Of a DNA stretch of 39,109 nt, positions 1 through 39,030 are shown piece after piece (the first letter of the stretch is position 1; each line of letters starts with the position of its first letter). The notes below the pieces were generated by a model. The model was not told where the DNA came from. It did no database searches and saw only the letters and a program-made list of their open reading frames with translations. Position numbers and translations under genes: made by a program. The stretch is from the NCBI GenBank assembly GCA_021792615.1, contig JAJYUJ010000023.1, forward strand, positions 1 to 39,109. Direction: 5' to 3'. The DNA is from a bacterium (GTDB lineage: Bacteria > JAMCPX01).

Positions 1-287
1 GAATTTTTACAGGCTAAGGGTGGATAAATTCAGGGTGTTTTACATGATCGAGGGAAAAAAAGTTATACTTCTCCGGGTTATAAACAAAAAAGATGCAGAC
101 CGGTTTATTCAAAAGTTATAACACAAATAAATATATTTAATCCTTCACGGGTTATCGGATTGTCCGGGTGAACTTTTGCTTTGCCTCAGGAAGACCCCAA
201 GTCTTCTCGTTTCGCTTATTCGTCTTCTCGTGACCCCAGACACTGCAAGACAGGGTTCACCTGAAACATCTCCATTCAAGTGGTGGT

Positions 288-36721: not shown

Positions 36722-36946
36722 CTATTCGGCTTCAAATTCTCTGCTTGGAATCTGGGATTGTCTGATAATCGACTTTAATGTACCTATTTTTATTTCTTTA
36801 TGATTGGGGACAGGGACTGTAATGGTCGAAATATCTTTCTTTTTCTGCATAACAATATGACTGCCCCTTTGACGTACCTTATTAAATCCATGATTCGACA
36901 AAATGCTGCAAACTTCCTGTCCGGATAAAACCTTAAGCTTACCCAA
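36722..36946 (-). CDS. hicA: HicA-family mRNA interferase toxin
   Basis: The 74-residue protein has the HicA double-stranded-RNA-binding-like fold. LSGQEVCSILSNHGFNKVRQRGSHIVM includes the catalytic histidine H30, and VPVPNHKEIKIGTLKSIIRQ is typical. HicA cleaves mRNA and is held by HicB. The start is TTG, with AGAGG 6 bases upstream; the gene overlaps the hicB stop by 8 bases. The order here is antitoxin first, then toxin, the reverse of the classical hicAB order but common in other genomes. Confidence 0.9.
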   Translation of the reverse strand: MGKLKVLSGQEVCSILSNHGFNKVRQRGSHIVMQKKKDISTITVPVPNHKEIKIGTLKSIIRQSQIPSREFEAE

Positions 36947-37166
36947 CAGATACCTCTAAACGGGTTATAAAGACTTCGCCGTGTAGACGATCTTTAACCT
37001 CTTGTTCAGAGGCGGATTCAAAGAATAATTCAATAGCTTCTCTTAAATTCTGCCGGGCTTCTTCTACTGTTTTACCCTGGCTTGCAACATCAAGTTCAGG
37101 ACATATTGCAACATAATCATTGTCCTCTCTCTCTATAATTGCGGTAAATTGTTCTACATGACGCAT
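36939..37166 (-). CDS. hicB: HicB-family antitoxin
   Basis: The 75-residue protein has the partial RNase H-like HicB fold: FTAIIEREDNDYVAICPELDVASQGKTVEEARQNLREAIELFFE. It lacks an obvious C-terminal DNA-binding domain (no ribbon-helix-helix or HTH after residue 60). AGGAGG precedes the ATG. It should neutralise the overlapping HicA. A perfect palindrome over its promoter suggests control by some factor, though this HicB seems too short to bind DNA alone. Confidence 0.9.
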   Translation of the reverse strand: MRHVEQFTAIIEREDNDYVAICPELDVASQGKTVEEARQNLREAIELFFESASEQEVKDRLHGEVFITRLEVSVG

Positions 37167-37290: not shown

Positions 37291-38046
37291 TCAATCGCCT
37301 TTTTCTTTTACAGAGTATGCCGCACCCCTGCCGTTGCCTTCACGCACTATCAGGCCTGAGCCGAGCAGGTTTCCGAGGAGACGGTTTATCGTGCTCTTGG
37401 GGATCTTTGTTTGGCCGATGCAGTCCCTGATATTAACGGCCTTTTTTTCTTTTATAAATTCCAGCAGCTCTTTTTCCTTTTCCGAAGTGCTGTCTATGGC
37501 TATACCTGCCTTAGATCTATCCGCGCTTACGGGATCCGCATGGTTTGCTGCCTTTGCCTGTTTGAACCTGCCTTTGAACGCAGCCTTCGATACAAACGCA
37601 CACGTATAAAGCGTTGCAACCTGTATAAACGTCCTCGAAAGCTCGGCAGGCATGCGCTCGATGACATGCAGCGCGACGCACAGGACAGAGGTAAGATAAA
37701 GCACGCCCCAGATAAGAACTGCATTGTCCCCTCTCCTTATCCTGCGTATGTATTCGTCCGGCTGGAGCACTGATTCTGTCCTGCGCACCCACCGGGTGAT
37801 CTCTTTCTTACCCATGTAAGCAAGCTGGATAATAAGGTATGCTGCGGTCGAAAGCTCGATCGCCTTTATCTCGTTTGCATTGGGAAACCCGATCAGCCTG
37901 TGAAAGGCAGGCACAAGGTTAATCCATTCCCATACGACGAGCCCGAGCTGTATCAAGGTTGCGAACCACAGAAGGAAAAACAGCTTGTCCCCGATCTCCC
38001 TTTCCACGGTGTCGATCTTTCTTTCGTAAGACTTATCTATATCCAT
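37291..38046 (-). CDS. Membrane-anchored winged-helix regulator
   Basis: From the ATG at 38046 the protein has 251 residues. Four hydrophobic segments occupy the N-terminal two thirds (LFFLLWFATLIQLGLVVWEW; IELSTAAYLIIQLAYMG; AVLIWGVLYLTSVLCVALHV; FIQVATLYTCAFVSKAAF). A polar linker then leads to a winged helix at about 190-248. Its recognition helix is likely IPKSTINRLLGNLLGSGLI and its wing REGNGRGAAYSV, as in MarR/IclR-like domains. DNA binding from a membrane-embedded protein suggests a one-component sensor. I chose the ATG by AGGAGG just upstream. Two CGTCTCAT repeat clusters and a consensus promoter lie upstream and could be its own control region. Confidence 0.78.
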   Translation of the reverse strand: MDIDKSYERKIDTVEREIGDKLFFLLWFATLIQLGLVVWEWINLVPAFHRLIGFPNANEIKAIELSTAAYLIIQLAYMGKKEITRWVRRTESVLQPDEYIRRIRRGDNAVLIWGVLYLTSVLCVALHVIERMPAELSRTFIQVATLYTCAFVSKAAFKGRFKQAKAANHADPVSADRSKAGIAIDSTSEKEKELLEFIKEKKAVNIRDCIGQTKIPKSTINRLLGNLLGSGLIVREGNGRGAAYSVKEKGD

Positions 38047-38087
38047 AATGCCTCCTATGCTTGGTTCTTTAGACTTTCTTTTAAATC

Positions 38088-38107
38088 CCCCTCTTTGTAA
38101 AAGAGGG
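38088..38107. repeat. Hairpin CCCCTCTT-TGTA-AAGAGGGG in the leader of the regulator
   Basis: A perfect 8-base stem with a 4-base loop, about 40 bases before the regulator's ATG and inside its predicted leader. It resembles the dispersed palindromes at 347 and 39085. Confidence 0.5.
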
Positions 38108-38120
38108 GACAGGCGAGATT

Positions 38121-38176
38121 TTCGTCTCATCGTCTCATTTGCGTCTCATTTTTATCCATTTGCGTCTCATGAGACG
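38121..38176. promoter_or_regulatory. CGTCTCAT repeat cluster 1 (operator candidate)
   Basis: CGTCTCAT occurs at 38122, 38130, 38141 and 38162. The last copy is part of the perfect 16-base palindrome GCGTCTCATGAGACGC (38161-38176). The cluster lies downstream of the predicted start of the regulator transcript. Confidence 0.6.
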
Positions 38177-38223
38177 CAGAACCATTTGTAATATAAGGAC
38201 AATCTCGATCCCATTGTTTGACG

Positions 38224-38252
38224 AATAATAAATATATAATACATGGCTGTCA
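38224..38252 (-). promoter_or_regulatory. Consensus promoter for the membrane winged-helix regulator
   Basis: On the minus strand TTGACA (38252-38247) and TATTAT (38229-38224) are exactly 17 bases apart. The predicted start is near 38217, giving a leader of about 170 bases that includes repeat cluster 1 and a hairpin. Confidence 0.65.
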
Positions 38253-38323
38253 AGGTTATTCTTCGTTAATGTACTGCGTGCCTTTATTGAAGCGGCTTCG
38301 CGGATAGCAGGGTTGAGATTTTG

Positions 38324-38390
38324 CGTCTCATTTATCGTCTCATCGTCTCATTTGCGTTCCACTTTCGTTCCATTGCGTCTTATGAGACGC
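38324..38390. promoter_or_regulatory. CGTCTCAT repeat cluster 2 (operator candidate)
   Basis: CGTCTCAT occurs at 38324, 38336 and 38344. Degenerate CGTTCCA copies follow, then the near-palindrome GCGTCTTATGAGACGC (38375-38390). As in cluster 1, GAGATTTT stands just before it and GCAGAA just after it, so the clusters look like an ancient duplication. Confidence 0.6.
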
Positions 38391-38418
38391 AGAAGTGTGC
38401 GGAATATATAATGTTCCT

Positions 38419-38524
38419 TGCCCCGTTAGAAAACACAGTAATCTATGAAGGAGATAAACCCAGTTACATCAATTATGAGACAGAAGATTTCCTAACAGGG
38501 CAAAGCACATCTTTTCTAACGGGG
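38419..38524. repeat. TTGCCCCGTTAGAAAA repeats in mixed orientation
   Basis: CCCCGTTAGAAAA (38421-38433) is matched perfectly and inverted by TTTTCTAACGGGG (38512-38524). A third inverted copy, TTTCCTAACAGGGCAA (38488-38503), differs at two positions. The segment could fold into alternative hairpins. Confidence 0.65.
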
Positions 38525-38581: not shown

Positions 38582-38833
38582 TTAACGGTATACTTCTTTT
38601 CTGTGAAGAACTCTGAAAATTGTTACAGTTTTTGTTTTGTCGTCAATTTCGTAAAGTATACGATATTTCCCTACACGCAATCTATACCCATCAACTCCCT
38701 TGAGTTTCTTGGTTTGATGCTGTCTGGGTTACTGAGCCAATGATTTTATCTTTTCATTGATAGCCGGTAGATCTTTTGGATTTATAGCACGAAGCTCTTT
38801 TTCCATTGTGGGCTTGGCAAGCAGTGTGTACAT
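38582..38833 (-). pseudogene. RelE/ParE-type toxin gene interrupted by an in-frame TAA
   Basis: Reading from the ATG at 38833 gives MYTLLAKPTMEKELRAIN, then ...KIKSLAQ, and a TAA at 38731-38729. Without any shift of frame the reading resumes PRQHQTKKLKGVDGYRLRVG, then KYRILYEIDDKTKTVTIFRV and LHRKEVYR, ending at 38582. The whole is 83 residues plus the internal stop, the right length for RelE/ParE toxins. The second half carries the KLKG...YRLRVGKYRILYEI signature and the C-terminal catalytic-type residues (RVLHRKEVYR). The ATG overlaps the antitoxin stop (TAATG). The rest of the frame is intact, so the nonsense change looks recent, or it is a base-call error. As written, only a 34-residue N-terminal fragment would be made. 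Confidence 0.8.
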
Positions 38834-39030
38834 TACAGGATTTTTTCTTTTTTAAGCCGGGCTTCAATCTTTGAATAAGGAATAGATTCTTCTTTTGCAA
38901 CAGCTAAAAAGGCTTTCTTGTCGCTAAGTTCTTCGAGAGAGTAAAGCAGCTTTTCATAATATTTAATATCCAGGATAACTGCTTTTTTTCGTCCTTTATT
39001 GTCAATTATATATTTTGTTTGAGTTTTCAT
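38833..39030 (-). CDS. RelB/Phd-like antitoxin
   Basis: The 65-residue protein has the pattern KYIIDNKGRKKAVILDIKYYEKLLYSLEEL, a short Phd/RelB-type antitoxin with an N-terminal beta strand pair and an acidic or amphipathic helix. The tail (YSKIEARLKKEKIL) would wrap the toxin. It directly overlaps the interrupted RelE-type gene. A consensus promoter ends at the ATG and no Shine-Dalgarno sequence is visible, so the message is probably leaderless. Confidence 0.82.
   Translation of the reverse strand: MKTQTKYIIDNKGRKKAVILDIKYYEKLLYSLEELSDKKAFLAVAKEESIPYSKIEARLKKEKIL

Follow-up and report, generated by a model that had tools for sequence, protein, structure and literature searches.

The window, that is, the whole 39,109-base stretch of DNA analyzed here, likely encodes a one-component transcription regulator that is embedded in the membrane and likely also contains the operators of that regulator, a judgement that extends to the whole mechanism proposed below. 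The repeats ahead of the regulator gene very probably serve as binding sites for the membrane-embedded protein that this gene encodes, because its relatives keep the arrangement of sites with the core switched at nearly every copy. The repeat CGTCTCAT (CGTCTCA) occurs nine times in the window, all within positions 38123-38389, seven times forward and twice in reverse, the reverse copies lying inside palindromes, while shuffled windows hold 1.3 copies on average and four at most. The busiest 7-mer per 500-bp tile reaches 9-10 copies at the repeat region and no more than six in every other tile of the window. Count and position confirm the original prediction of seven forward copies in two clusters, each closing in a 16-bp palindrome or near-palindrome (Table 1). 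Both clusters represent the same 77-nt unit in diverged form (79% identity, 213 bp apart), and AATATA stands at the same offset from the palindrome core in seven of the seven units compared. The two CGTTCCA copies of the distal unit (38355-38372), absent from the earlier description, have the sequence of the repeat at G004:C300, a decayed relative, and may be mutated sites or a sign of cross-talk. The promoter that the clusters were said to flank is located on the minus strand between them and matches the consensus at 11 of 12 positions; about one promoter of this quality per region is expected by chance, yet it is conserved in the aligned sequences of G003:C45, G004:C195, and G003:C273. The proximal unit, placed in the leader by the same prediction, indeed lies between the predicted promoter and the ATG, about 77 bp ahead of the latter and inside the predicted mRNA. 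A search for structured RNA at the repeat region is negative, no Rfam family matching at E-values of up to 1.

Table 1. Features of the regulator locus, in window coordinates (residue numbers for the protein domains)
Feature	Position	Strand	Description
Regulator gene	37291..38046	-	ORF of 251 aa (MDIDKSYER...), ATG at 38046, AGGAGG upstream
Regulator domains (predicted)	residues ~1-165; ~187-246		membrane helices; linker; C-terminal winged helix
Proximal operator unit (putative)	38123..38176	.	four forward CGTCTCAT, the last one within the palindrome
Perfect 16-bp palindrome GCGTCTCATGAGACGC	38162..38177	.	ends the proximal unit
AATATA, proximal unit	38190..38195	.	offset +23 from the palindrome core
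Predicted promoter TTGACA-17-TATTAT	38225..38253	-	between both units
Distal operator unit (putative)	38324..38389	.	three forward CGTCTCAT, two CGTTCCA variants, near-palindrome
Near-palindrome GCGTCTTATGAGACGC, one mismatch	38375..38390	.	ends the distal unit
AATATA, distal unit	38403..38408	.	offset +23 from the palindrome core

The start of the regulator gene is supported by its homologues, which begin at the same MDI. Profile analysis of the protein reports weak matches of its C-terminal residues with the MarR_2, Penicillinase_R, and IclR winged helices, all sub-threshold (Penicillinase_R, 18.1 bits for a cut-off of 22.6; MarR_2, 20.1 for 27), and membership of the BlaI/MecI (Penicillinase_R) or MarR families is rejected, the scores lying under all curated cut-offs. 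AlphaFold2 models the winged helix with a pLDDT of ~72-81 and four long helices at low confidence (~50-57 in the membrane part), and Foldseek relates the winged-helix domain to AspA, MecI, BlaI, MarR, and PagR with weak E-values of 0.003-0.02, TubR being matched as well. Each of these HMM, AlphaFold2, and Foldseek results is weak alone, but their agreement supports the predicted winged-helix fold. The N-terminal part returns nothing convincing in profile searches, and its membrane domain has no match to the curated families searched. The hydropathy profile shows four membrane segments, two of them strong and two weaker, which, together with the low-confidence model, leads us to predict that the protein is membrane-embedded, as a four-helix protein ending in a winged helix had been anticipated; neither the model nor hydropathy indicates a sizeable periplasmic part. 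DNA-binding and transmembrane domains in one polypeptide are what defines a membrane-bound one-component regulator, and on these predictions the protein counts as one. As for the gene neighborhood, hicBA lies downstream on the same strand (36722-37166), and on the other flank (38600-39030) a RelB-like antitoxin is accompanied by a probable toxin.

Full-length relatives were detected only within one small bacterial family, where four of nine genomes contain them. Besides the window's own genome, these are two drafts of the same genus and one draft of a second genus, so that the comparison rests on a small sample of three draft assemblies. In a profile search of 386 genomes, full-length relatives are likewise confined to this family, the distant matches being winged-helix parts alone. 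A phage or plasmid origin is rejected, as the plasmid and phage collections contain no relative of the regulator. The relative at G005:C79 (L035, 1501-1757) has lost its membrane domain, the first 45 residues being joined to the winged-helix end; together with fragments at G004:C147, G005:C166, and G000:C20, this deletion suggests that paralogues decay often.

Each motif was counted in the 500 bp upstream of each relative and compared with dinucleotide shuffles (n=500). The resulting motif-by-locus table is close to diagonal, with off-diagonal counts mostly zero: CGTCTCA occurs nine times at the window locus and is absent from the other gene-bearing loci, CGTGTCA six times at G004:C195, CATGTCA five times at G003:C273, and CGTATCA five times at G005:C67 and five at its orthologue G003:C230. 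Shuffles that attain the count of the commonest 7-mer number 0 (window), 1 (G004:C195), 15 (G003:C273), 3 (G005:C67), and 1 (G003:C230) out of 500. Signals are weaker at the decayed loci, G004:C300 (CGTTCCA, four copies) and G005:C79 (CGTTCA, four copies), where 10 and 163 of 500 shuffles attain it, and the repeat at G005:C146 is indistinguishable from chance (427/500). Nearly every relative thus has repeats of its own, but their cores differ and G005:C146 lacks a clear motif. Pairs of CGTGTCA occur at G004:C195 alone among the nine genomes, and isolated CGTATCA pairs in G000:C45, G001, G007, and G008, single and widely spaced, are judged to be chance occurrences.

The window was aligned with G003:C45, G004:C195, and G003:C273. 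At conserved positions, the sites read TGAGACG in the window and G003:C45, TGACACG in G004:C195, and TGACATG in G003:C273, while the promoter, the spacer DNA, and the site flanks stay aligned, so the 7-bp cores have changed together. Among members of the MDID group, identities are 65-77% for the membrane domain and 29-55% for the winged helix; the winged helix thus diverges faster than the membrane domain. A concerted change of cores at conserved positions is what a shift in the DNA specificity of the regulator predicts, and copying of whole units fails to explain it because the flanks remain orthologous. Selection exerted by the DNA-binding domain would explain the joint change. The claim that the winged-helix protein uses the repeats is hence well supported at the sequence level by the conserved positions, the concerted switch, and the near-diagonal table.

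The geometry of the sites is regular, 16 of 19 half-site spacings being 10-12 or 20-22 bp, i.e. one or two helical turns (Rayleigh p ~1.5e-5, a value that is indicative only, as spacings were read by hand and sites found by motif). The palindromes lie 213 bp apart in the window and at G003:C45, and 182 bp apart at G004:C195; the difference of 31 bp amounts to almost exactly three turns, a hint given by only two independent values. In the CGTATCA paralogues, both clusters stand upstream of the putative promoter, and the order of clusters and promoter differs from that of the window. The bracketing of the promoter is consequently a feature of one branch: the layout described for the window is kept in part of the family, but not in these paralogues, and G005:C146 has no statistically clear motif.

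In the mechanism that we propose, the palindrome CGTCTCA|TGAGACG would be bound by the C-terminal winged helix, which probably dimerizes, and further copies of the protein would occupy the direct CGTCTCA half-sites, which face the same side of the DNA helix at a distance of one or two turns. Binding is the best supported of the putative steps, ahead of dimerization, repression, looping, and sensing; that the protein would bind from within the membrane, as the original prediction has it, is likewise a putative step. With one unit in the predicted leader and the other about 105-170 bp upstream of the transcription start predicted near 38218 on the minus strand, negative autoregulation would be the most likely outcome, possibly via a loop between the units; autorepression is plausible, as is looping to the membrane, which is suggested by spacing alone. 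Since the membrane domain lacks a sizeable outside part, the signal that it senses would be a condition of the membrane or envelope. The relatives would make up a small family that changes fast and whose members each recognize their own form of the site, an arrangement that would insulate the paralogues. If this holds, the soluble domains of the window protein and of the G004:C195 relative would each prefer their own site among CGTCTCATGAGACG, CGTGTCATGACACG, and CGTATCATGATACG.

The regulon of the window motif is likely small, as one further unit lies upstream of a lipoprotein glycosidase gene. In the 2.54-Mb genome of the window, closely spaced CGTCTCAT pairs occur only at the window locus and at C23:62340-62378, and the whole genome holds three units, two at the locus and one at C23, in agreement with the expectation that the repeats are not scattered over many unrelated loci. 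The third unit (C23:62338-62403; 90% identical over 67 bp) stands about 120-150 bp upstream of a gene encoding a GH5-like lipoprotein glycosidase, which would probably be the second target, and has no regulator gene beside it. A reading frame that by eye we take to be DUF5615-like breaks off where this unit begins (L001 1320-1470, G000:C23), which suggests that insertion or recombination brought the unit there. Within the nine genomes of the family, CGTCTCAT pairs are restricted to G000:C46, G000:C23, and G003:C45. At G003:C45, both units and the promoter are present and the regulator gene is missing from its expected place, which is occupied by what appears by eye to be an IS110-type transposase gene; this two-unit region and the single C23 unit indicate that units can exist without an adjoining gene. 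Pairs of CGTCTCAT in G067 and G084, genomes with no relative of the protein, are tandem CGTCTCATGTTG units or a single pair in unrelated settings and are dismissed as chance or unrelated.

Units without a regulator gene raise the question of whether they are MITE- or REP-like repeats, small and dispersed, either mobile or amplified passively, that stand beside the gene by chance. Each cluster does copy a unit of ~77 nt, the C23 copy borders a gene fragment, and the G003:C45 region is gene-less, but 2.5 Mb of genome hold a mere three units, the core varies by locus in step with the type of regulator, and neither spread nor homogenization of units would leave the flanks orthologous while the cores change together. 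The five family genomes that lack the protein also lack CGTCTCAT and CGTGTCA pairs, and we regard such an origin as improbable. Even less probable is a centromere-like or membrane-anchoring array of the iteron or parS type, through which the membrane protein would hold chromosomal sites with no control of transcription. The helical register of the direct repeats, the centromere binders AspA and TubR among the Foldseek matches, and the lack of an extracytoplasmic domain would fit such an array; against it, the copies bracket the conserved promoter of the regulator gene itself. Nor is any replication, rep/par, or partition gene recognized among the ORFs around the locus, which, with the empty plasmid and phage searches, also leads us to reject a plasmid partition system or iteron origin.

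An activator or dual regulator, whose main target would be a divergent or distant surface lipoprotein gene and for which the leader unit would be secondary, is compatible with autoregulation and deserves more weight, even if we deem it rather unlikely. Units stand beside genes for secreted lipoproteins with fn3, NHL/Vgb, or TIG domains (fn3 at G004:C195; NHL/Vgb propellers at G003:C273, G004:C206, and G004:C234), besides the GH5-like one at C23, and this association is suggestive because Vgb-like propeller matches number only 5-23 per genome. Moreover, the palindrome and AATATA could belong to an outward-facing promoter, directed away from the regulator gene. However, no gene of any size lies that way in the window before the contig end, the neighbors at G005:C67 and G003:C230 are of other kinds, and sites in the leader suit repression better.

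The protein represents a new family with a narrow distribution, within the known class of membrane-bound one-component regulators. It shares the winged-helix fold with the BlaI/MecI and MarR-type repressors, whose known members are dimeric and act on short palindromes, including at their own promoter; these are soluble, and the membrane domain of the window protein has no counterpart there. The bacitracin sensor-regulator BcrR of Enterococcus has its DNA-binding domain at the N-terminus, of a helix-turn-helix type other than the winged helix of the window protein, and activates the bacitracin resistance operon. Like the predicted window protein, it is a one-component regulator that is permanently anchored in the membrane, through a domain of four helices (as cited in PMC13384398). 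ToxR and CadC are membrane-integrated one-component regulators with a winged helix-turn-helix, but theirs is N-terminal, the protein crosses the membrane with one helix, and the sensor is periplasmic (PMC5936718); membership of that family is rejected since the window protein has a C-terminal winged helix (187-246), several membrane helices, and no sizeable periplasmic part. The closest described analogue that we found, with the same order of parts, is the LytTR-type membrane transcription factor HigX of Caulobacter (PMC13384398). HigX begins with four membrane helices and has no periplasmic domain; a linker leads to its C-terminal DNA-binding domain. It recognizes an inverted repeat that is imperfect and has 8-bp halves and no spacer, has cell-envelope genes among its targets, and lies near a toxin-antitoxin pair, as the window regulator does beside hicBA. 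In contrast, its DNA-binding domain is LytTR instead of a winged helix (no family member has a LytTR match in Pfam or NCBIfam, so membership of the HigX type is rejected), and neither multi-site clusters around its own promoter nor a paralogue-specific operator series appears in the text consulted on HigX (PMC13384398). The open-access literature searched contains nothing that matches paralogue-specific operators of membrane winged-helix regulators.

With this locus, membrane-bound regulators gain a further family, one with a membrane domain that fits no curated family searched. The locus also offers a natural series of close regulators with matching operators, in which one or two half-site bases change along with the winged helix, so that the joint change of regulator specificity and operator sets is directly testable. 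A broader reading, which we offer tentatively and as somewhat short of probable, is that duplicated, lineage-specific membrane winged-helix regulators would rapidly switch specificity and carry their operators along (CGTnTCA, n = C/G/A, and variants), forming insulated autoregulatory loops that tie their own and surface-lipoprotein promoters to the membrane.

Two other kinds of repeat were observed. An inverted repeat, CCCCGTTAGAAAA/TTTTCTAACGGGG, with its arms 78 bp apart, lies at window positions 38421-38524, and a similar pair, CCCGTTAGAA...TTCTAACGGG, lies upstream of the G005:C146 relative (L060 ~1689-1782); together they look like a small dispersed element of the lineage. In other lineages, winged helices or remnants of the AlbA_2/HATPase_c_4 type often have short direct repeats in frame ahead of them (L030, G088:C51; L102, G358:C156; L111, L114, L125, L131, L136, and L139), such as five copies of TAGCGGAT, or TTGACGCAAATG, and linkers such as VTPEVTPEVTPE, VEAQVEAQVE, or SSQKSSQK. 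These in-frame repeats may serve related winged helices as operators inside the gene.
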